The notes under the pieces were generated by a model. That model did not search any database, was not told where the DNA came from, and saw nothing but the letters and a program-made list of their open reading frames with translations. From contig NZ_JARKNC010000001.1 in the NCBI RefSeq assembly GCF_029360805.1, positions 496,001 through 560,000 of the forward strand: a stretch of DNA of 64,000 nucleotides, given 5' to 3'. The translations under genes were made by a program, and so were the position numbers. Source of the stretch: Daejeonella sp. JGW-45. Its GTDB lineage: Bacteria > Bacteroidota > Bacteroidia > Sphingobacteriales > Sphingobacteriaceae. This document shows positions 14,150 through 24,507 of this stretch, one piece after another. Position 1 is the first letter of the stretch. The number at the start of each line of letters is the position of its first letter.

Positions 14150-15484
14150 CTAGGAAAGAAGTGCACTGATCGCCTTGTCAACTTTTGCAAAGCTAAAGTT
14201 TTTAAGAGTAGCTTTAAAAGACTCATAGATCTCTTTGTTACAAAGATTTCCGATGCTTCCTTCATGCGTATGATTGACCATTTCGGGGGCGTTAAATTCT
14301 CCTTTTTCAATAGCCGAACCGACGTTCCTATATGCTTCACGGAAAGGAACACCTTTTAAAACTTCGGCATTCACAGCCTCAACACTAAAGAGATAAGCAT
14401 ATTTAGCATCCTTTAAGATGTCTTCTTTTATTCGGATAGCCTGCAGCATTAAAGACGTCATTTCAAGGCATTCATTCAATGATGCAAAGGCTGGGAAAAG
14501 GTTTTCCTTCAGCAGCTGCAGGTCACGGTGGTAGCCTGATGGAAGATTGGTAGTCATGAGGGCGATCTCATTTGGCAAGGCCTGGATCTTATTACATCTT
14601 GAGCGGATCAGTTCGAAAACATCCGGGTTCTTTTTATGAGGCATGATGCTTGATCCGGTTGTCAGCTCATCAGGAAAAGTAATGAATGCAAAGTTCTGAT
14701 TAATGAACAAGCACGCGTCCATTGCGAGCTTTGCCAATGTTGCCGCGACAGAAGACATGGCCTGAGCGAGTATCCGTTCTGTTTTTCCCCTCCCCATTTG
14801 TGCATAAACAACATTATAATTCAATGCATCAAAGCCCAGCAATTCCGTTGTCATTGTCCGGTTTAGAGGAAACGATGAACCATAACCCGCGGCAGAACCA
14901 AGGGGGTTCTTATTACAGATCTTCCAGGCTGCGAGCATCAATTCCATATCGTCGGCAAGGCTTTCAGCGTAGGCTCCGAACCACAGACCAAAAGATGAAG
15001 GCATAGCTATCTGCAAATGGGTATAACCCGGAAGCAGTTTGTCTTTATGTTCCTCACTCTGAACGATCAGCTGATCGAAAAGTACTTCTATATTCCCTGC
15101 AAGCTTCTGGATCTCAGACCTAAAAAACAATTTAAGATCAACCAAAACCTGGTCATTGCGGGAACGCCCGCTATGAATTTTCTTCCCTGCCTCTCCAATT
15201 CTCTGTGTCAGAAGAAACTCGACCTGTGAATGGACATCTTCGACAGTGGGCTCGATAACGAACTGCCCGTCCTCAATTTCCTTGTAGATCTTCTTCAGTT
15301 CCCTCTGAACCAGTGCAAGATCTTCCTTTTCCATTAATCCTATGCTTTCCAGCATTTGAGTATGAGCAAGGGAACCGAGGACATCAAACGGCGCCAGCAA
15401 CAGATCCATTTCACGATCGTTGCCAACCGTAAATTTCTCCACTGACTTTTCTGTGTTTGTGTTTTTTTGCCAGAGCTTACTCAT
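14150..15484 (-). CDS. argH: Argininosuccinate lyase
   Basis: Splits argininosuccinate to arginine and fumarate, the last arginine step. The fumarase-superfamily signature GSSIMPHKKNPDVFE is intact, along with the HSGRSRNDQV and GYTHLQIAMPS segments that carry the other active-site residues. I start at ATG 15484 (MSKLWQKN), giving 444 residues, because the upstream in-frame extension to 15622 is not family-like and runs into the preceding acetyltransferase gene. With this start the two genes overlap by 8 bp. It is within the arginine operon. Confidence 0.95.
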   Translation of the reverse strand: MSKLWQKNTNTEKSVEKFTVGNDREMDLLLAPFDVLGSLAHTQMLESIGLMEKEDLALVQRELKKIYKEIEDGQFVIEPTVEDVHSQVEFLLTQRIGEAGKKIHSGRSRNDQVLVDLKLFFRSEIQKLAGNIEVLFDQLIVQSEEHKDKLLPGYTHLQIAMPSSFGLWFGAYAESLADDMELMLAAWKICNKNPLGSAAGYGSSFPLNRTMTTELLGFDALNYNVVYAQMGRGKTERILAQAMSSVAATLAKLAMDACLFINQNFAFITFPDELTTGSSIMPHKKNPDVFELIRSRCNKIQALPNEIALMTTNLPSGYHRDLQLLKENLFPAFASLNECLEMTSLMLQAIRIKEDILKDAKYAYLFSVEAVNAEVLKGVPFREAYRNVGSAIEKGEFNAPEMVNHTHEGSIGNLCNKEIYESFKATLKNFSFAKVDKAISALLS

Positions 15485-16070
15485 ACGATACAAAATTTGT
15501 AAAATACTGTTCCTTAATGGTATCCCATTCAGACCGCAAAATACTGTAATACACTGTGTTACGGATATAACCGTCGTGCAGCTTAATATGTTCACGGAGT
15601 ACACCCTCGCGGGTTGCACCAATTCCCAAAATAGCCTGCCGTGAGCGATGGTTACGTTCGTCAGCTTTCAGTTCTATCCGGTTTAGCCCCAAAGTTTCAA
15701 AACCATAACTCAGGATAAGGAATTTCATTTCCTTATTAAGCCCGCTTCCCTGAAAATCATTTCCTATCCAAGTCCAGCCTATCTGGCCACGCTCATCCCT
15801 CCACGAAATCTCTGCAAGGCGCGTGCAGCCCGCAATCTGGTTTGTTGCTTTATCAATTATCACCCAGACGGCACAAATTCCGTTACTGCGATCCGCAATG
15901 GCATTGGCTATATATTTTCTTAGTTCACCCGGTTTCGAAAGATCCGATATTCCGTAGATCCATAAGCCATCATCGTTTGCAACTTCCTGTAATGCTATTT
16001 CGTCATCTTTTGTTAGCGGACGAAGAAGCACTCTCTCACTTTCTAAACTTCTATTCAGATCCGGTATCAT
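15477..16070 (-). CDS. GNAT family N-acetyltransferase (RimJ/RimL-like)
   Basis: A 197-residue GNAT-fold protein of the ribosomal-protein-alanine acetyltransferase type. It has SERVLLRPLTKDDE at the N-terminus, GWTWIGNDFQGSGLNKEMKFLIL in the acetyl-CoA binding region, NRIELKADERNHRSRQAILGIGATREGVLREHI and NTVYYSILRSEW. It sits inside the arginine operon between the argE-like gene and argH with an 8-bp overlap and no gap. It might acylate a small molecule rather than a protein, but this is inference from position only. Confidence 0.8.
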   Translation of the reverse strand: MIPDLNRSLESERVLLRPLTKDDEIALQEVANDDGLWIYGISDLSKPGELRKYIANAIADRSNGICAVWVIIDKATNQIAGCTRLAEISWRDERGQIGWTWIGNDFQGSGLNKEMKFLILSYGFETLGLNRIELKADERNHRSRQAILGIGATREGVLREHIKLHDGYIRNTVYYSILRSEWDTIKEQYFTNFVSYE

Positions 16071-17129
16071 TTATATTATTTTTGATAGTAATTTGATATA
16101 AAGGTCAATACCTTCCCTTATCTCATTTAAGTGAATAAATTCATCAGCCATATGCGATCTGGCAGAATCTCCCGGCCCCATCTTTAAGGACGGGATGTCA
16201 AGTAAAGCCTGGTCGCTGGTCGTTGGTGAACCATAAGTTGTTCTTTGCAAAGCCAGTCCGGCTTCTACTATTGGATGATCCTTCCTGATAAATGAGGGCT
16301 TTAACCTCGTCGACCGGGCGGTAACTTCGCAATTGACGTTCTTACGGATAATGTTCAGCACCTCCTCGTTCCTGTAAGCATCAGTGACACGTACATCGAC
16401 AGTAAATTTACAAATTGCCGGAACAACATTATGTTGTGACCCCGCTTCGATAATGGTCACACTCATCTTAACAGGACCGAAGAGTTCTGATTTCTTGGAG
16501 AACTTATAAGTTCTGAACCATTCTATATCTCTCAAAGCCTTATAGATAGCATTATCGCCCTCCTCTCTTGCTGCATGACCTGCCCTTCCGTAAGCGATGC
16601 AATCAAGCACCATAAGGCCTTTTTCAGCAATAGCCATATTCATTAAAGTAGGCTCGCCAACGATCGCAAATTCCAGTTCACCCAATTCAGGAATTATCAG
16701 TTCCAGGCCATTCTGACCGGAAATTTCTTCTTCTGCTGTGAGAGCAATGCAAAGGTTATATTTTAGGTTTTCCTCGTTATAGAAATGCAAAAACGCAGCT
16801 ATTAAAGAAACGAGGCAGCCCCCCGCATCATTGCTTCCAAGCCCGTAAAGTACCTCATCTTCAACATTCGCAGAGAAGGGATCACGCGTATATCCCGGAT
16901 TAGGTTTTACCGTATCATGATGAGAATTAAGCAGGATGGTAGGCTTAGCCGCGTCAAAAAACTTATTGTAAGCCCATACATTATTAAGCTTACGCACAGT
17001 TTTAACGTTCCTCGCCGTCAAAAACTCATCAATGATCGATGCAGTTCTGTCTTCTTCCTTGCTGAATGAGGGAATACTAATCAGTTTTTTAAGTAATTCT
17101 ACACTGTCGTCAATAAGCGTTTCAGACAT
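16071..17129 (-). CDS. argE: M20-family N-acylornithine deacylase (ArgE-like)
   Basis: A zinc amidohydrolase predicted to remove the N-acyl group (acetyl or succinyl) from citrulline or ornithine in arginine synthesis. The 352 residues show NSHHDTVKP (metal His), GLGSNDAGG (bridging Asp), TAEEEISGQNG (catalytic Glu pair), VGEPTLMN and the late histidine in GDSARSHMADEF. The operon context with the argF' type carbamoyltransferase implies it acts on N-acylcitrulline rather than N-acetylornithine. It lies between proC (4-bp gap) and a GNAT gene (no gap). DapE-like activity is the main alternative. Confidence 0.85.
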   Translation of the reverse strand: MSETLIDDSVELLKKLISIPSFSKEEDRTASIIDEFLTARNVKTVRKLNNVWAYNKFFDAAKPTILLNSHHDTVKPNPGYTRDPFSANVEDEVLYGLGSNDAGGCLVSLIAAFLHFYNEENLKYNLCIALTAEEEISGQNGLELIIPELGELEFAIVGEPTLMNMAIAEKGLMVLDCIAYGRAGHAAREEGDNAIYKALRDIEWFRTYKFSKKSELFGPVKMSVTIIEAGSQHNVVPAICKFTVDVRVTDAYRNEEVLNIIRKNVNCEVTARSTRLKPSFIRKDHPIVEAGLALQRTTYGSPTTSDQALLDIPSLKMGPGDSARSHMADEFIHLNEIREGIDLYIKLLSKII

Positions 17130-17133
17130 TATA

Positions 17134-17949
17134 TTATCCTTTTGTGTAAAGTTCGCCGGCCTTCAGGGCCGACAACTTGATTCCCTTTATTAATGATGAA
17201 CTGAAGCCCTGATGTTCCATCTCATTTAAACCAGCTATGGTACAGCCTTTAGGTGAGGTTACCTTATCGATCTCATGCTCGGGGTGACTGTTCTGAAGTA
17301 ACAGAAGATCGGCAGCGCCTTTGGCAGTTTGAACAGCCATTTTTAAGGCCTCATCTGCATGGAACCCGATCTCGATACCACCCTGCGAAGCCGCCCTGAT
17401 CGCCCTTAAAAAGAACGCAACCCCACAAGCGCATAAGGCTGTAGCTGAAGTCATCAGATCTTCATTGATCTTAATGACCGAACCCACGGTTTCAAACATT
17501 TTTGTAACCTCAGCTATGTTTTCAGCGCTGGCGTTATCCGATGCGATACAGGTCATAGATTGCCCAATAGCGATAGCAGTATTCGGCATCGCACGGATAA
17601 CCTGAACATCGCTACCCAGTTTAGCCTTGATGTCGGCACAGCTGACACCAGATATGACCGAGATAACCACATGCCTTTTCGAATCAATGGCCCCATTGAT
17701 CTCCCCCAATAAAGTATTTAATTGTTGCGGGAGAACCGCAAGAATGATCACGGCAGAATCTGATACAGCATTCGAATTCTGATCACTGGTTTTGAAACCC
17801 TGAGCTGCCTCTTCAGAAAGGTGCTGAACGGCCCGGCGGGTGAGCGTGATATCACCGGGTTTACAATAATCAGCTTTTACCAGCCCCCTGGCAAGTGACA
17901 TCCCAATATTTCCGCTTCCTAAAATTGCAATTCTCTCTGATTTGGCCAT
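17134..17949 (-). CDS. proC: Pyrroline-5-carboxylate reductase
   Basis: Reduces pyrroline-5-carboxylate to proline using NAD(P)H. The 271 residues begin with the Rossmann motif AILGSGNIGMSLARGL, then AVLPQQLNTLL, RAMPNTAIAIGQSM and the C-terminal signature around VTSPKGCTIAGLNEMEHQGF. It overlaps argB by 1 bp. Its place inside an arginine operon ties proline and arginine formation from glutamate under one transcript, an arrangement seen in Bacteroidota. Confidence 0.93.
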   Translation of the reverse strand: MAKSERIAILGSGNIGMSLARGLVKADYCKPGDITLTRRAVQHLSEEAAQGFKTSDQNSNAVSDSAVIILAVLPQQLNTLLGEINGAIDSKRHVVISVISGVSCADIKAKLGSDVQVIRAMPNTAIAIGQSMTCIASDNASAENIAEVTKMFETVGSVIKINEDLMTSATALCACGVAFFLRAIRAASQGGIEIGFHADEALKMAVQTAKGAADLLLLQNSHPEHEIDKVTSPKGCTIAGLNEMEHQGFSSSLIKGIKLSALKAGELYTKG

Positions 17950-18761
17950 TATTTCTCTGATTTTAACCGTGTTCCAAATGTTTTTTCCTTTAACCGGGAG
18001 AGCGCATCCGCTTTCCCTATATAAACCTCACTGAGGCCTTTGCTTATCGCTTCAAATGCGTTATCGAGTTTAGGAACCATGCCCGAGTGGATAGCACCTT
18101 CTTTCTTCAATTGCTTATATTCCTCCGGATCAATGCCCGGGATAACCGACCCTTCATCATTTACATCCTTAAGAACTCCGCTCTTTTCGAAGCAGTAAAC
18201 AAGCGAAGTGGTGTACAACCCTGACATAGCCACGGCAATCACAGAAGCAATAGTATCGGCGTTTGTGTTTAATAACTGACCGTTTCCGTCATGAGTGATG
18301 GCGGAAAAAACCGGTGTAAAGCCTGCTTGTACCAGTTTATAAATTGCCTGTGCATCTACAGAATTATCATCCAGATCGCCAACGAAGCCGTAGTCGATCT
18401 GGCGGCCGTCTGCTATCGTTTTAAGCGGACGCTTTTTAGCCCTGATAATATTTCCGTCCGCACCGGCAAGACCTATCGCATTACAATTTCTCTTTTGCAA
18501 ACCGGCGACAATATTCTTATTGATCAGCCCTGCGTAAACCATCGCTACAACTTTCAGGCTTTCGTCATCAGTGACCCTTCTGCCTTCGATTAGCTCGGAT
18601 TTAATTCCAAGATCCTCAGCAAGCTTGGTCGCGATCTTACCTCCGCCGTGCACCAGTATCTTATACCCCTCCAACTCAGAAAAATCCTTAAGGAAGCTTT
18701 CCATCTGCACCGGGTCGTCGATAATATTTCCACCGATCTTTATCACATAAAGCGGTTTCAT
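17949..18761 (-). CDS. argB: N-acetylglutamate kinase (N-acylglutamate kinase)
   Basis: Phosphorylates the gamma-carboxyl of N-acylglutamate. The 270 residues carry the amino-acid-kinase motifs KIGGNIIDDP (residues 8-17), VHGGGKIATKLAEDLG and EGRRVTDDESLKVV, plus VVAGLQKRNCNAIGLAGAD. It overlaps argF' upstream by 4 bp and proC downstream by 1 bp, so it is firmly within the operon. Whether the acyl group is acetyl or succinyl is open here (see the argF' entry). Confidence 0.94.
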   Translation of the reverse strand: MKPLYVIKIGGNIIDDPVQMESFLKDFSELEGYKILVHGGGKIATKLAEDLGIKSELIEGRRVTDDESLKVVAMVYAGLINKNIVAGLQKRNCNAIGLAGADGNIIRAKKRPLKTIADGRQIDYGFVGDLDDNSVDAQAIYKLVQAGFTPVFSAITHDGNGQLLNTNADTIASVIAVAMSGLYTTSLVYCFEKSGVLKDVNDEGSVIPGIDPEEYKQLKKEGAIHSGMVPKLDNAFEAISKGLSEVYIGKADALSRLKEKTFGTRLKSEK

Positions 18762-19720
18762 TTCAAGTCCTCCAGCATCTTCTTAAGAACGGCCTGCGCC
18801 GCCCAGGTCCTGTTGCCCGCCTCTTTGATCACAATAGAATGAGGACCATCGAGTATCTCGGCCGACAATTCATAGTCACGTCTCACCGGCAAACAATGCA
18901 TTACTTTTGCTTCATTAGTAGGTGCTAATTTGGCATTGGTCATCATCCATGATTCAGCGCCCGGTAAAGTTTGTCCGTAATCTCTATAGGAAGACCAGTT
19001 TTTAACGTATACAAAATCAGCACCTTCAAGCGCCTTATCCTGGTCTGTGATAATCGTTGCTCCCTGAGTAAATTTCTCGTCAAGCTCAAAACCTTCCGGA
19101 TGTGTGATCACAAACTCGATCATCCCTTCCTTTTGCGCTTCAGACATCCATTCAGCAAAGGAATTCGGCACCGCCTGGGGCAGCGCCTTAACATGCGGAG
19201 CCCAGGTTAAAACAACCTTCGGCTTCGCTGTCTTCTTATGTTCTTCAATGGTGATCAGGTCCGCAAAACTTTGCAAAGGATGCAGCGTTGCACTCTCCAG
19301 ACTCACAACAGGTACTCCGCTGAACCTGACAAATTTGTTGAAGAGGCTTTCGCTGTAATCTTCTTCCCGGTCCTGTAACTTTGGAAATGACCGGAATCCA
19401 AGGATATCACAATATTCACCCATTACAGCAGCAGCTTCCCGGATGTGCTCCACGGTAGTGCCGTTCATAACCACACCGTCTTCAGTCTCTAAAGCCCAGC
19501 CTTCTTTGTCAAGGTTCATCACCATGACATTCATCCCCAGGTTTAATGCTGCCTTCTGTGTACTTAATCGCGTGCGCAGGCTTGGGTTAAGAAAAACCAA
19601 ACCAATTGTTTTGTCCCTGCCCAATGATTTGTTGGCAAAGGGATCGGCTTTAAGGACCAAAGCCTCTTCGATAAATTTTTTCAGATCAGTTACATCCCTG
19701 ACCGAAGAAAATAGTTTCAT
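18758..19720 (-). CDS. argF': N-acylornithine carbamoyltransferase (ArgF' type)
   Basis: Transfers a carbamoyl group to an N-acylated ornithine, giving N-acylcitrulline. The 320 residues contain the carbamoyl-phosphate motif SLRTR (residues 47-51), HCLPVRRDYELSAEIL and the C-terminal AGNRTWAAQAVL, all in the form used by N-acetyl and N-succinyl enzymes rather than ordinary ornithine transcarbamylase. From family knowledge, one residue before an EHI/EHL motif separates the two (Glu in the Xanthomonas acetyl enzyme, Pro in the Bacteroides fragilis succinyl enzyme). Here that residue is Val90 (GTTVEHI). This removes the glutamate and leans to succinyl, but it is not proof. Confidence 0.9.
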   Translation of the reverse strand: MKLFSSVRDVTDLKKFIEEALVLKADPFANKSLGRDKTIGLVFLNPSLRTRLSTQKAALNLGMNVMVMNLDKEGWALETEDGVVMNGTTVEHIREAAAVMGEYCDILGFRSFPKLQDREEDYSESLFNKFVRFSGVPVVSLESATLHPLQSFADLITIEEHKKTAKPKVVLTWAPHVKALPQAVPNSFAEWMSEAQKEGMIEFVITHPEGFELDEKFTQGATIITDQDKALEGADFVYVKNWSSYRDYGQTLPGAESWMMTNAKLAPTNEAKVMHCLPVRRDYELSAEILDGPHSIVIKEAGNRTWAAQAVLKKMLEDLK

Positions 19721-19788: not shown

Positions 19789-20943
19789 TTAAGAAAGGCT
19801 TTTCTCAAATTTACCCAACAGCTCCAGGCTGAAAGCCTCCAGGAACTGGTCAGCATGCGCCCTCGTCAGGTTCAATGCAGGCAATAACCGGATAACATTA
19901 GGTTTGGCCTCACCGGTAAAGATACGATGTTTAAAAAGTAAATTTTTCTTCACGTGGCTTAGTTCTTCAGGCAGCTCTATACCGATCATCAAACCCCGTC
20001 CCCTGACTTCTTTGATCTGGTCAAACTTCCTAAGTTCCCCGATCAGATAATTGCCGACTTCGTCGGCATTTTGCATCAGCCCGTCCTGCTCCATCACTTC
20101 AAGAACTGCCAGCGCGGCTGCACAGGCTAGGTGGTTACCACCAAAGGTGGTTCCGAGCATCCCGTGCCATGGTGTAAATTTAGGTGCAATCGAGATTCCC
20201 CCTATCGGGAAACCGTTACCCATACCCTTGGCCATGGTATAAATGTCCGCATCAATATCTGCATGATCGTGGGAATAAAACTTACCGCTCCTGCCATACC
20301 CGCACTGTACGCTATCCGCTATAAAAACCGCATCATACTGATCGCACAAGATCCTGATCTTCTGAAGGAAACTTTCTGTGGCGACTTTAATTCCACCTAC
20401 ACCCTGGATGCCTTCAATGATCACCGATGAGATCTCATTTCCATGAGCGTTGAAAGCTTGCTCTAAAGCAGCTTCGTCATTGTGAGGAAGGAAGATAATA
20501 TTGTCAGTTTCGTTAACCGGTGCAACGATCTTTGGATTGTCTGTAGCTGCAACTGCCAAAGATGTTCTTCCGTGGAATGCACCTTTAAAAGAAATAATTT
20601 TCTTCCTGTTATTATAGAAAGATGCAAGCTTCAATGCGTTTTCGTTGGCTTCCGCGCCGGAGCTGCACAAGAATAACTGGTAGTCGGTTTTACCCGATAT
20701 CTTCCCAAGCTTTTCAGCCAACTGAACCTGTAATGGAATCTTAACTGAATTAGAGTAGAAACCAACTTTGTTTAGTTGATCGGTTAGTCGTTTTACATAA
20801 TGTGGATGTGTATGGCCGATAGAAATGACAGCGTGACCGCCATACAGATCAAGATATTCATTCTCATTTTCATCCCATACTATGCTGCCTTGCGCTTTAA
20901 CAATTTCAATATCGTTTAAAGGATAAACGTCAAATAATTTCAT
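19789..20943 (-). CDS. argD: N-acylornithine aminotransferase
   Basis: Class-III PLP aminotransferase making N-acylornithine from the semialdehyde. The 384 residues include SGAEANENALKLA, KGAFHGRTSLA, the Schiff-base region YTMAKGMGNGFPIG and GTTFGGNHLACAAALAV. In place of the usual DEVQ.G.GR the protein reads DSVQCGYGRSG. Other key positions are intact, so I think the enzyme is active. It lies between argC (182-bp gap) and argF' (68-bp gap). Confidence 0.93.
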   Translation of the reverse strand: MKLFDVYPLNDIEIVKAQGSIVWDENENEYLDLYGGHAVISIGHTHPHYVKRLTDQLNKVGFYSNSVKIPLQVQLAEKLGKISGKTDYQLFLCSSGAEANENALKLASFYNNRKKIISFKGAFHGRTSLAVAATDNPKIVAPVNETDNIIFLPHNDEAALEQAFNAHGNEISSVIIEGIQGVGGIKVATESFLQKIRILCDQYDAVFIADSVQCGYGRSGKFYSHDHADIDADIYTMAKGMGNGFPIGGISIAPKFTPWHGMLGTTFGGNHLACAAALAVLEVMEQDGLMQNADEVGNYLIGELRKFDQIKEVRGRGLMIGIELPEELSHVKKNLLFKHRIFTGEAKPNVIRLLPALNLTRAHADQFLEAFSLELLGKFEKSLS

Positions 20944-21125: not shown

Positions 21126-22115
21126 TTAAAACGCAGAGGCCTTAAGTTTCAGGCCAATGGTCTCCTCCAAGCCAAACATCAAATTCATATTTTGCACTGC
21201 ATGTCCACTGGCACCCTTAAGCAAATTGTCAAGCATCGAAATAATGAACAACTTATTGCCATGCTTTTCTATATGCACCAGGGCTTTATTGGTATTCACA
21301 ACCTGTTTGAGGTCGATGTTTTTAGTGCTAACATGCGTAAACGGATGACCAGCATAAAAATCATCATAGATCTGGGTCGCTTCTTCCAGAGTCAGATCAC
21401 TTTCAAGATAAATCGCAGCTAAAATTCCCCTGGTGAAATCCCCCCTTTGTGGGATAAAATTGATCGTCTGATCAAAGCCATCTTGCAGAGCTGTTAACGT
21501 TTCCCCTATCTCATTCAAATGCTGATGCCCGAACGCTTTGTAGATCGAAAGGTTATTGTTTCTCCAGGTAAAGTGCGACGTTGCTGCCAAACTTTGGCCT
21601 GCCCCGGTAGATCCGGTAGTAGCGTTAATATGGATCTCGGAATTCAGTAAGCCCTTAGCCGCTAACGGAAGCAGACCTATTTCTATGGTTGTAGCAAAAC
21701 ATCCCGGGTTGGCAATATTGCTTGCAGTTTTGATCTTATCCCTGTTCAGCTCCGGCAAGCCGTAAACAAAGCTTCGGTCTTTCAGCTTTGAGTTTTGAGC
21801 CAGTCTGAAATCCTGGCTGAGATCAATGATTTTAACGGAGTCTCCTATGGTGTTGGCATCCAGGAATTTCCTGGCATCTCCATGCCCTACGCAGAGGAAG
21901 AGCACATCAATATTCTGCGATAGCGTACTGGTAAACTTCAGATCGGTATCACCATACAGGTCGGTGTGCACTTCATAGACCGGGTTGCCTGCATTGCTGT
22001 TACTGTGAATGCATATTATGTCCACCGCCGGATGATTGATCAATATCCTGAGTAGTTCACCTCCTGTATATCCTGCACCGCCGGCTATTCCGACCCGTAT
22101 TTTACCGTCTGTCAT
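21126..22115 (-). CDS. argC: N-acetyl-gamma-glutamyl-phosphate reductase
   Basis: Reduces N-acylglutamyl phosphate to the semialdehyde with NADPH. The 329 residues start with the dinucleotide-binding motif VGIAGGAGYTGGELLRIL, have the catalytic cysteine in NPGCFATTIEIGLLPL and the histidine region GHQHLNEI. It starts 2 bp after argG ends, so translation is tightly coupled. Confidence 0.95.
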   Translation of the reverse strand: MTDGKIRVGIAGGAGYTGGELLRILINHPAVDIICIHSNSNAGNPVYEVHTDLYGDTDLKFTSTLSQNIDVLFLCVGHGDARKFLDANTIGDSVKIIDLSQDFRLAQNSKLKDRSFVYGLPELNRDKIKTASNIANPGCFATTIEIGLLPLAAKGLLNSEIHINATTGSTGAGQSLAATSHFTWRNNNLSIYKAFGHQHLNEIGETLTALQDGFDQTINFIPQRGDFTRGILAAIYLESDLTLEEATQIYDDFYAGHPFTHVSTKNIDLKQVVNTNKALVHIEKHGNKLFIISMLDNLLKGASGHAVQNMNLMFGLEETIGLKLKASAF

Positions 22116-22116
22116 T

Positions 22117-23307
22117 TTATTTTTTCTCGTTAACTCTATGATAGATCATCGTCTGGTTGCCGAAGATCTTTGAAAATCCTTTTACATCCTCGCCCGACCA
22201 CGAATTGTTCATCTCGCCGTAACTGCCGAATTTATTCGACATCAGGTCGTGCCCGGATTCAATACCTATTACCTGGAATCTGTAAGGATGAAGCTTAACA
22301 AATACTTTTCCTGAAACAGTCTCCTGCGTGTCTGCCAAAAACGCCTCCATGTTCCTCATAATCGGATCATGGAACTGCCCTTCATGAAGCCAGTTACCGT
22401 AGAAGCCAGCCAACTGGTCCTTCCAGCTTAACTGCCATTTGGTTAATGTATGTTTCTCAAGCGTGTGATGCGATTTGATGATAATAATCGGTGCAGCAGC
22501 CTCGAAACCTACCCGGCCTTTGATACCGATAATTGTATCGCCAACGTGGATATCCCTGCCAATACCATAAGGTTGTGCGATGGCCTGCAATTTCTGGATA
22601 GCTTTAACCGGAGACAACTTCTCGCCGTCAATACCAACTAATTCACCTTTTTCAAAGGTCAGTTCAATATCTCTCTCCTTAGTTTCAGAGACCTGCGTAG
22701 GCCAGGCTTCTTCAGGTAGAGTTTCGCGGGATGTCAATGTTTCCTTACCGCCAACAGAAGTTCCCCAAATTCCTTTGTTAATGGAATACCTTGCTTTCTC
22801 AGCCGTATATTCCACACCATGTTTATTCAGGTATTCAATCTCTGCTTCGCGGCTTAACTTCAGGTCCCTGATCGGAGTAATGATCTCCACTCCAGGGATC
22901 ATGATATTAAATATCATATCGAAGCGTACCTGGTCATTACCAGCACCGGTACTCCCGTGAGCAACGTAGTCTGCTCCAATTTTCTTTACATAATTAGCGA
23001 TAGCTGTAGCCTGGCTTACTCTTTCAGCACTTACGGACAATGGGTAAGTTGCATTCTTCAGCACATTTCCGAAGATCAGGTACTTAATACAGCTGTTATA
23101 GTAATTCTCGGTTTCATCCACAACTGCGTGTGAAGAAACACCAAGTGCATAAGCGCGTTTCTCAATTTTCTTCAGCTCGTCGTCGGAAAAGCCTCCGGTA
23201 TTAACGATCACAGAATGAACTTCCAGATCACGGTCTTTCGTTAAATAGATACAACAAAACGAAGTATCTAAACCTCCGCTGAAAGCTAAAACTACCTTCT
23301 TCTTCAT
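22117..23307 (-). CDS. argG: Argininosuccinate synthase
   Basis: Ligates citrulline and aspartate with ATP. The 396 residues show the PP-motif AFSGGLDTSFC (residues 8-18), AHGSTGAGNDQVRFD and KARYSINKGIWGTSVGG. Length is close to the family norm. It follows the operon's first structural gene (GNAT) by 1 bp, so it is the second gene of the arginine transcript. Confidence 0.95.
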   Translation of the reverse strand: MKKKVVLAFSGGLDTSFCCIYLTKDRDLEVHSVIVNTGGFSDDELKKIEKRAYALGVSSHAVVDETENYYNSCIKYLIFGNVLKNATYPLSVSAERVSQATAIANYVKKIGADYVAHGSTGAGNDQVRFDMIFNIMIPGVEIITPIRDLKLSREAEIEYLNKHGVEYTAEKARYSINKGIWGTSVGGKETLTSRETLPEEAWPTQVSETKERDIELTFEKGELVGIDGEKLSPVKAIQKLQAIAQPYGIGRDIHVGDTIIGIKGRVGFEAAAPIIIIKSHHTLEKHTLTKWQLSWKDQLAGFYGNWLHEGQFHDPIMRNMEAFLADTQETVSGKVFVKLHPYRFQVIGIESGHDLMSNKFGSYGEMNNSWSGEDVKGFSKIFGNQTMIYHRVNEKK

Positions 23308-23308
23308 T

Positions 23309-24034
23309 TTAATTTTGTAAAAGTTTAATTATTGTAATACTCGTCATAGCAATCATTTTTAATGAATTGCGCAATTTTTCTTCAAGTCTCTCCAGAAGGC
23401 TCTGCTTCCGCGATACTTTGCTTAGCCGCTCCTCATCCTGCTTCTGCTTAAGCTCATCAGCCTCCCTCATTTTCCTTTCGATCTCCTTAGCTTTTTCTTC
23501 GGGATCCCAGAGCATCGCCGTACACATGCAGTTCTTACGCTCTTTCATTTTAAGGATATCGTAATTCACGCAACTCTGGCAGCCCTTCCAGAAATCCTCA
23601 TCCTGGGTAAGCATGGAATACGTGACCGGCTCGTAGCCTAGCTCCGAGTTGATCTTCATCACAGCCAAACCGGTGGTAAGGCCAAATATCTTTGCCTCAG
23701 GGTACTTGTGTCTTGAAAGTTCAAACACTGCCTTCTTGATCATTCTGGCTAAGCCCCTATTCCTGTATTGCGGATTAACTATCAGGCCCGAATTGGCTAC
23801 AAAGGTACCATGGCTCCAGGTTTCTATATAACAAAATCCGGCCCAGGTCCCATCTTCATGCAATGCAATAACTGCCTTGCCCTCAAGCATTTTCTGAACG
23901 ATATACTCCGGGCTTCTCCGGGCAATGCCCGTACCCCTCGCCTTAGCAGATTCTGCCATTTCATCACAGATCTGTTCAGCGTATTTAATATGTTGTTCTG
24001 TTGCCGGAATGACAACAAATTCGTTTTCTTTCAT
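23309..24034 (-). CDS. GNAT acyltransferase, candidate first enzyme of arginine synthesis (ArgA role)
   Basis: A 241-residue protein. Residues 1-150 form a GNAT fold: AEQICDEMAESAKARGTGIA, then the acyl-CoA loop NPQYRNRGLARMIKKAV (R/QxxGxG/A type). A cysteine-rich stretch follows (CQSCVNYDI, then RKNCMCTAMLWDP: CxxC and CxC), and then a charged coiled coil (about 185-225). No classical argA, argJ or argA-type kinase fusion is present in the cluster, and this gene opens the operon immediately before argG. I recall a GNAT in the same position in Bacteroides thetaiotaomicron being linked genetically to N-succinylglutamate formation. I therefore infer glutamate N-acylation, not proven here. Confidence 0.7.
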   Translation of the reverse strand: MKENEFVVIPATEQHIKYAEQICDEMAESAKARGTGIARRSPEYIVQKMLEGKAVIALHEDGTWAGFCYIETWSHGTFVANSGLIVNPQYRNRGLARMIKKAVFELSRHKYPEAKIFGLTTGLAVMKINSELGYEPVTYSMLTQDEDFWKGCQSCVNYDILKMKERKNCMCTAMLWDPEEKAKEIERKMREADELKQKQDEERLSKVSRKQSLLERLEEKLRNSLKMIAMTSITIIKLLQN

Positions 24035-24068
24035 GTACTTTGAAGAAAAAAATCCGGCTTTGAGGCGG

Positions 24069-24093
24069 AAAAAAGACTACGTTTTTAGTCTTT
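24069..24093 (-). terminator. Terminator-like hairpin in the arginine-operon leader (attenuator candidate)
   Basis: Reading the minus strand, AAAGACTA, a 6-nt loop (AAAACG) and TAGTCTTT form an 8-bp stem that runs straight into TTTTTT. It lies 35 bp upstream of the first structural gene and about 70 bp downstream of the leader ORF stop. A terminator placed before the whole operon only makes sense as a regulated one. Confidence 0.6.
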
Positions 24094-24122
24094 CCTTTTG
24101 TGAATAATATCATTGATTGAGG

Positions 24123-24143
24123 AACCGGAAGAATTTACCGGCT
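24123..24143 (-). promoter_or_regulatory. Leader hairpin between the leader ORF and the attenuator
   Basis: On the minus strand AGCCGG and CCGGTT pair (one G-U) around a 9-nt loop. Another AGCCGG occurs at 24053-24058 after the terminator, so the CCGGTT arm has two possible partners. Such competing pairings are typical of attenuators, but the energetics are not computed here. Confidence 0.4.
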
Positions 24144-24162
24144 GTATGTTTTGATGCCAAGA

Positions 24163-24297
24163 TCAAGTCCGCGGCATAAAGGGTCGTCGGAAACGCAATA
24201 CTAATTTTTCAGCGCTGAAATTACTACGTACACAACCCGCCTGGCAAGCCGGGTGACCTGCAGATCCCGTGTGTGTTTGGTAGTTTAAACTATTCAT
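24163..24297 (-). CDS. Arginine-rich leader peptide ORF upstream of the arginine operon
   Basis: A 44-codon ORF (ATG 24297, TGA 24163-24165) in the long untranslated leader of the arginine operon. The peptide begins MNSLNYQTHTG, has a CxxxC pair (HPACQAGC) and ends RSNFSAEKLVLRFRRPF followed by MPRT. Five arginines fall in the last 21 codons, including adjacent CGA CGA. The stop is followed by a hairpin and a terminator-like stem with a U-tract before the first structural gene. That is the layout of an attenuation leader in which ribosome stalling on arginine codons controls readthrough. The DNA also contains an ACCCG/CGGGT hairpin and the palindrome TTTCAGCGCTGAAA. No Shine-Dalgarno is seen, as usual for the phylum. 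Confidence 0.6.
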   Translation of the reverse strand: MNSLNYQTHTGSAGHPACQAGCVRSNFSAEKLVLRFRRPFMPRT

Positions 24298-24395
24298 CTT
24301 TAATAGTATGTGTGTTTCTAATTATTATGCAAATAACAGAGAAAATCTCGAATAATACAATAGGACAGGTTTATTATTACAATTTGTTAACAAGG

Positions 24396-24507
24396 AGTAA
24401 GTTGTAAGTAATAAGTTGTAGGTTATAAGTTTCTATACGCTGTAAAAAAAGGTCTGAATTAATTTTCCAGGTGTTCGGAAAACTTACAACTTATAACCTA
24501 CAACTCC
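24396..24507. repeat. Word-repeat inverted pair downstream of the lipoprotein gene
   Basis: AGTTGTAGGTTATAAGTT at 24414-24431 is perfectly inverted at 24488-24505 (18 bp) around a 56-nt loop. The left arm also contains extra copies of AAGTTGTAAGT. It abuts the stop codon of the lipoprotein gene, so it may act as that gene's terminator. It also separates it from the arginine leader. Confidence 0.65.

Follow-up and report, generated by a model that had tools for sequence, protein, structure and literature searches.

Classical leader-peptide attenuators are those of the his, trp, leu, ilv, thr and phe operons, and theory holds that attenuators use codons whose tRNAs lose their charge first. The arginine codon CGA pairs poorly with a tRNA carrying the ICG anticodon, through a weak I-A wobble. 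Most genes of Bacteroidota start without Shine-Dalgarno pairing.

Several more specific systems have been described. The Salmonella speF leader orf34/SpeFL senses arginine by two consecutive Arg codons, and pausing at low arginine is reported to yield a stable, translatable mRNA structure (PMC6386406). In tests of the Salmonella his leader, pairs of Arg codons containing CGA are described as giving high de-attenuation (PMC4046918). The Arg-codon leader peptide rbfL of Staphylococcus aureus is tied to arginine supply, and pausing is said to repress translation of a biofilm regulator (PMC13009471). In the LEU element of actinobacterial leuA, the run of regulatory codons is described as pairing with the first gene's initiation region, with a pseudoknot enclosed between them (PMC1262725). 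For Flavobacterium psychrophilum, attenuation by leader peptides was put forward in a general way as a mechanism at amino-acid operons (PMC9723704).

The window analyzed here is the whole 64,000-nt stretch of contig NZ_JARKNC010000001.1 from Daejeonella sp. JGW-45. It carries a short open reading frame (ORF) upstream of an arginine operon (Table 1). Like classical attenuators, this locus combines a short ORF, tandem codons for the product of the operon itself and a biosynthetic operon; a hairpin overlaps the ORF end, and predicted alternative hairpins precede the first gene. Unlike them, it concerns arginine and Bacteroidota, relies on one near-fixed rare codon pair, and has an output structure that varies by genus, an ORF of 41–46 codons with the pair at codons 37–38 (in the window) and no strong GC-rich terminator.

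The consecutive Arg codon pair is shared with orf34/SpeFL, which differs in the controlled gene (ornithine decarboxylase), in the position of the pair (codons 12–13), in the involvement of Rho and RNase G, and in that rare codons are described as unneeded there (PMC6386406). A Pfam scan of the leader ORF gave 0 families at E ≤ 0.001, so there is no match to orf34 (DUF2618). The rbfL leader, as described, has the opposite sign and an unrelated gene (PMC13009471). Leaders of Sphingobacterium and Olivibacter share the described layout of the LEU element, a base stem made by codons and an inner pseudoknot (PMC1262725), with Arg for Leu, in another phylum and with GGTC for the Shine-Dalgarno box; the window type is without the base stem. 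In the window itself we found no pairing between codons and the initiation region, and the codons are Arg codons before an arg operon rather than Leu codons before leuA.

Leader-peptide attenuation as a mechanism class is already known. The first-pass annotation of this DNA knew of no description of attenuation by arginyl-tRNA supply in this phylum; the idea is not entirely new there, since a general proposal exists for amino-acid operons of F. psychrophilum. That proposal shares phylum and idea, and the conserved 5' elements named in its main text belong to pheA and hisG rather than to arginine genes (PMC9723704). Neither an arginine leader of Bacteroidota nor an exchange of repressor and leader was found in searches of an open-access library.

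The leader ORF and its operon

The genes follow each other on the minus strand in the order GNAT-argG-argC-argD-argF'-argB-proC-argE-GNAT-argH. The GNAT acetyltransferase encoded by the first gene received no curated family name in the NCBIfam comparison; we infer that it is probably an N-acetylglutamate synthase. Matches to this protein are present in 99 of 295 Bacteroidia genomes. A gene of the proC type sits within the arginine operon.

Table 1. Positions of the leader elements and operon genes in the window.
Feature	Position	Strand	Remark
Leader ORF, 44 codons, MNSLNYQTHTGSAGHPACQAGCVRSNFSAEKLVLRFRRPFMPRT	24163..24297	-	stop TGA at 24163-24165
Regulatory pair CGA CGA, codons 37-38	24184..24189	-
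P1, hairpin across the stop codon (ATGCC ... GGCAT)	24154..24177	-	5' arm within the ORF
P2, CCGG hairpin	24123..24143	-	other hairpins at this place in relatives (by eye)
H1, stem AAAGACTA/TAGTCTTT	24072..24093	-
H2, hairpin CCGCCTCAAAGCCGG then ATTTTTTTC	24045..24068	-	terminator-like
5' strand CGGACTTGA of the alternative helix against H2	24163..24171	-	folding prediction, weak beyond the closest loci
3' strand TCAAAGCCG of the alternative helix, within H2 loop and 3' arm	24055..24063	-	folding prediction
GNAT acetyltransferase, first operon gene	23309..24034	-	best NCBIfam match far below cut-off
argG	22117..23307	-
argC	21126..22115	-
argD-type transaminase	19789..20943	-	below curated NCBIfam cut-off
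N-acetylornithine carbamoyltransferase-like (argF')	18758..19720	-	below curated NCBIfam cut-off
argB	17949..18761	-
proC, pyrroline-5-carboxylate reductase type	17134..17949	-
argE/dapE-type deacylase	16071..17129	-	below curated NCBIfam cut-offs
Second GNAT gene	15477..16070	-
argH	14150..15553	-	start uncertain

The 44-codon ORF and its Arg codons CGT, CGA, CGA and CGG are in the sequence as the first-pass annotation had read them. That annotation had named missing codon-level conservation as grounds for giving up its attenuation reading; in relatives the frame, the length and the CGA-CGA pair are kept. A CxxxC pair in the peptide, also pointed out there, is not conserved: it is absent from all 11 closest relatives, three of which carry CX5C, and we dropped it as a feature.

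Regions of up to 500 bases upstream of the GNAT gene were sampled at 126 Bacteroidia loci. ORFs of this kind precede the same GNAT in most sampled Sphingobacteriaceae, often with the tail RRPxxPRx-stop. The best short ORF had at least four Arg among its last 13 residues at 59 of the 126 loci; the reverse complements gave 7 such cases in 126, and dinucleotide shuffles gave 61 in 2520. As this count is inflated by kinship, family and out-of-family loci were separated. Such tails were found at 40 of 52 loci inside Sphingobacteriaceae and at 17 of 73 loci in other Bacteroidia families (L124, a second, diverged GNAT copy, omitted), with 1.1 expected and 4 in the reverse complements. Arginine is the single residue clearly enriched before the stop codon at these 73 loci; the counts for other residues were 10 for Leu (7.0 expected), 3 for Pro (0.9 expected) and 1 each for Cys and Asp (about 0 expected). 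Tails with fewer than three Arg (32 of 73) arise through true absence, argR carriers being among these loci, or through a missed start or another leader.

The DNA pattern of the tail was matched by 81 stretches of the genome collection, 80 of them listed. Among the listed matches, 73 have a GNAT match starting 140–277 nt downstream, all in genera of Sphingobacteriaceae or in unplaced Bacteroidota bins and isolates; the other seven belong to unrelated phyla and are without this operon. About 7.5 matches are expected by chance (calculated for a pattern with 18 fixed bases in a collection of 257 billion bases). The leader ORF is not due to chance.

A tail pattern scanned across the family had matches in no more than 111 of its 399 genomes and 13 of 25 genera, some matches not being leaders: nine of the 40 that were fetched (L199, L206, L220–L226) were excluded on reading. 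Two large genera, g14 and g15, are mostly without this pattern. In g14 an ORF of the same length ends in FTPRI, the Arg pair being lost (L109, L110). Two further leaders (L097, L099) end in PRR and have, by eye, a hairpin directly around the stop codon, AGACGC-TGAT-GCGTCT; also by eye, CTTACGT may pair there with ACGTAAG close to the start codon.

The motif TAnnTTTG, which we take to be the promoter consensus, was not seen by eye upstream of the ORF in the window; within 90 nt upstream of the ORF it occurs in 12 of 43 relatives (3.3 expected).

Codon choice and tRNA supply

Fifty leader ORFs were picked by a peptide motif (RR in the tail) blind to codons; they are related to each other and include the window and a few from other families. 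The first codon of the Arg pair is CGA in 47 of them and the second in 46, whereas outside the pair these ORFs have 154 Arg codons, 13 of them CGA. Their length is 41–46 aa in 45 cases. Among the Arg codons of 51 long ORFs of the window, CGA is the least frequent (51 of 845), and the pair CGA-CGA is absent from the 17,615 codons of these ORFs. With its pair nearly fixed, the leader lends itself to testing the theory that codons of the first-discharged tRNA are those chosen by attenuators.

All 38 listed tRNA genes were typed. The Arg anticodons are ACG, TCT, CCT and CCG, a second CCG tRNA-Arg being detected by ARAGORN only. No tRNA-Arg with the TCG anticodon was found among the 38 genes, so CGA should be read by the ICG tRNA alone; the genome is 97.6% complete, hence a tRNA gene may be missing.

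In the 12 closest loci, including the window, pN/pS equals 0.13 for codons 32–44 and 0.55 for codons 2–31. For 63 ORFs of the type with GGTC before the gene start (GGTC type, below) it is 0.18 in the tail and 0.81 in the front part. Synonymous changes (pS) are likewise fewer in the tail than in the front. Amino-acid constraint together with fewer synonymous changes is what an overlap of codon choice, peptide and RNA would lead one to expect.

Hairpins and long-range pairings

The hairpin across the stop codon, P1, is predicted in the window (p = 0.075 against shuffles). A stop-straddling hairpin reaches p ≤ 0.05 against shuffles at 31 of 72 loci, and the pre-start folding energy does so at only 13 of 72. 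Covariation in P1 was counted formally in the sister genera. When 38 leaders from Sphingobacterium, Olivibacter and relatives were aligned, the paired share of cells was 95.4%, compared with 33–54% in slid versions, and 23 two-sided changes were present; the sequences are related, so that cell counts do not represent independent events. None of 500 shuffles reached the observed pairing or two-sided counts. The number of additional pair types in these leaders did not stand out from shuffles (7 vs 6.1; 103 of 500). Alignments A3 and A4, with hairpins off by at least one base, were excluded from the counts. P1 is a hairpin at the ORF end of the kind that a stalled ribosome would open.

Downstream of P1, the CCGG hairpin (P2) noted in the first pass is present. 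The 8-bp stem described there as running into six U also exists (H1), with three of the six U belonging to the stem itself; H1 is conserved by eye, with changes on both sides of the stem, e.g. GGCTA/TAGCC in L018. The second AGCCGG copy, offered as an alternative partner, is at 24054-24059 and forms part of a further small hairpin (24054-24068), after which comes ATTTTTTTC. Pairing of P2 with the second CCGG as a general switch was rejected, because P2 of several relatives retains no CCG (by eye).

The switchable element in the window can be H2, the hairpin after H1. Its U-rich tail stops 10 nt ahead of the GNAT start codon. H2-like hairpins were found in 26 of 100 distinct leaders; these were derived from 140 leaders, with L115, L139, L150, L181 and L260 omitted as no gene start was found. 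A terminator scan of the locus gave 0 terminator-like sites, RNAalifold predicted no pairs for the window-type alignment A1, and in the window there were 0 Rfam matches at the gathering score (T-box, Bacteroid-trp and others).

For the window, H2 is predicted to form with a probability of 0.90 when the ribosome is at the stop codon and of 0.00 when it is at CGA-CGA, because CGGACTTGA at the stop codon then pairs with TCAAAGCCG of H2; with no ribosome the probability is also 0.00. This probability is predicted to be lower in the stalled state than at the stop codon in all 12 closest loci, the window included, the change being small in two of them (0.94 to 1.00 and 0.00 to 0.04). At the other 14 loci of the H2 type, the predicted direction is right in four, tied in four and opposite in six. 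We also compared native with swapped partners in about 480 scan-window pairs, the leaders being thinned to 41 of the GGTC type and 19 of the H2 type. In the latter set, the stop region and the H2 loop gave the top signal (z = -4.0); in a test of the exact segments, swapped partners were equally good in 121 of 2000 permutations. We regard the predicted H2 switch as plausible locally, but not as conserved.

A different arrangement is seen in the sister genera. GGTC occurs upstream of the start codon in 36 of the 38 first-examined leaders of Sphingobacterium, Olivibacter and relatives, 13–16 nt from it in all but L092, where the start is misplaced; for L091–L126 the distances are approximate, their gene starts being accurate to about ten bases. 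GGTC can pair with Arg-Pro codons of the leader (CGACGACC), the informative base being the third one of the Pro codon. In 65 distinct leaders selected for having GGTC, this base and its partner are T-A in 40, C-G in 15 and T-G in 4, i.e. pairable in 59, and mismatched in 6 (A.A in 5, C.A in 1). Since the type is defined by GGTC, this selection leaves the native-versus-swapped comparison alone unaffected, and there the Arg-Pro/GGTC pairing shows the largest difference of the approximately 480 scan-window pairs (z = -6.2; 41 thinned leaders). RNAalifold found this stem and P1 unaided in 37 distinct leaders. Single-locus Arg-Pro/GGTC duplexes were mostly not significant against shuffled pre-start sequence. 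A second pairing in the sister type joins the last codons and the stop with a region 36–52 nt past the stop, close to the loop of the hairpin that follows (native -9.8 vs swapped -8.4 kcal/mol, z = -5.9, top of 268 pairs). The window type has neither GGTC before the start codon nor the second pairing. In this type no sequence ahead of the start codon paired with CGACGACC better than shuffles did, and such a partner was rejected.

Proposed control, alternatives and the distribution of ArgR

We consider it likely, judging from the sequence comparisons, that the leader ORF senses charged arginine tRNA and controls the arg operon by the position of the ribosome. The CGA-CGA pair would be the sensitive stall site, each codon being read by the ICG tRNA through weak wobble. 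When arginine is plentiful, the ribosome would reach the stop codon and cover the region after the tail, H2 would form, and expression of the operon would go down. When arginine is scarce, the ribosome would stall at CGA-CGA and cover the 5' arm of P1, assuming the footprint of a ribosome whose A site is at the second CGA. P1 would then be opened, and the freed CGGACTTGA would pair with the loop and the 3' arm of H2 (TCAAAGCCG), leaving no H2 and increased expression. H2 may act by termination or by blocking initiation.

Translation-dependent attenuation by arginyl-tRNA had been put forward in the first-pass annotation. The sensor half of that claim is strongly backed by the frame, the length, CGA-CGA, pN/pS of the tail and Arg enrichment: a conserved, constrained ORF with tandem codons for the product (CGA-CGA and Arg clusters) precedes the biosynthetic operon. 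The output half is less settled, as a consistent predicted H2 switch is confined to the window and the 11 closest loci, and sister genera pair differently near the start codon. The model predicts that the output differs by lineage, namely loss of H2 in these 12 loci and the Arg-Pro/GGTC pairing in the Sphingobacterium and Olivibacter types.

Part of the same evidence is compatible with arrest by the nascent peptide, where the tail RRPxMPRx-stop in the exit tunnel would sense free arginine or a relative, as in TnaC or SpeFL, and Arg codons would be there for their residues. The low pN/pS of the tail fits this explanation, as do the stable ORF length despite the drifting N-terminal sequence and the retention of Pro after RR through four different codons (CCC, CCT, CCG and CCA). 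An arrest peptide, however, needs no near-fixed codon identity at the pair and not elsewhere, and tails outside the family have mainly Arg clusters in common; we regard arrest as unlikely. It is a good deal more credible, if still short of an even chance, that control is translational only: the leader would gate initiation at the first gene with no termination, and in Sphingobacterium and Olivibacter a stalled ribosome would remove the Arg-Pro codons from GGTC. The pairable informative base in most GGTC leaders, the top native-versus-swapped signal and the stem recovered unaided by RNAalifold all point that way. Against it, the window type is without GGTC at that place, two of the first 38 leaders are without it as well, six of the 65 are mismatched in a set chosen for GGTC, and single-locus duplexes mostly do not differ from shuffles.

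An RNA that binds a metabolite or a protein like a riboswitch, with an incidental ORF, could account for the conserved hairpin and the long-range pairings of the sister genera. It is very improbable given the ORF constraint at both codon and amino-acid levels, the variation of structures among genera in which the Arg pair persists and a window that reaches no Rfam gathering score. Short ORFs as such are frequent (a single 16-kb stretch is overlapped by 139 that are 30 aa or longer), yet an ORF without any role is hardly conceivable here, being contradicted by the comparative counts: the tail pattern before the operon, the codon pair, the Arg enrichment and pN/pS.

If the leader senses charged arginine tRNA as proposed, Bacteroidota without ArgR would gain a means of arginine control. 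The model of the C-terminal ArgR domain had no match in the genome of the window or in those of 59 relatives (60 in all). Among 295 Bacteroidia genomes it matched 12, of which 11 matches are good; the twelfth (G506) scores 25.0 bits, at the cut-off, contains an internal stop and lies away from the operon. Seven of the 11 genomes with a clear ArgR also have this GNAT, and in all seven argR is directly upstream of it on the same strand (its identity was read in L126, L171, L183, L184 and L185, and the other two were placed by coordinates). Thus, the leader takes the seat of argR.

Tentatively, we suggest an exchange of regulators: argR would head the arg operon in part of Bacteroidia, and an arginine-sensing leader of about 44 codons would stand there in many other families. 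In Sphingobacterium and Olivibacter relatives, the eight nucleotides CGACGACC would be at once stall site, peptide code and the RNA strand that closes the site where translation of the first gene begins. This would be the LEU element invented a second time, independently and with no Shine-Dalgarno box. A repressor that binds DNA and a sensor acting at the RNA level would then alternate at one locus. As Bacteroidota mostly start genes without Shine-Dalgarno pairing, a leader gating initiation would reveal how such control operates in a phylum in which it has received little study.

A plasmid search gave no match. Just 5' of the leader, two inverted copies of CTTATAACCTACAACTT, one of them mismatched, are located at 24413-24429 (-) and 24490-24506 (+). 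Genome-wide, CTTATAACCTACAACTT has nine matches with at most one mismatch, and the reversed control has none; the copies look like a small dispersed inverted-repeat element.
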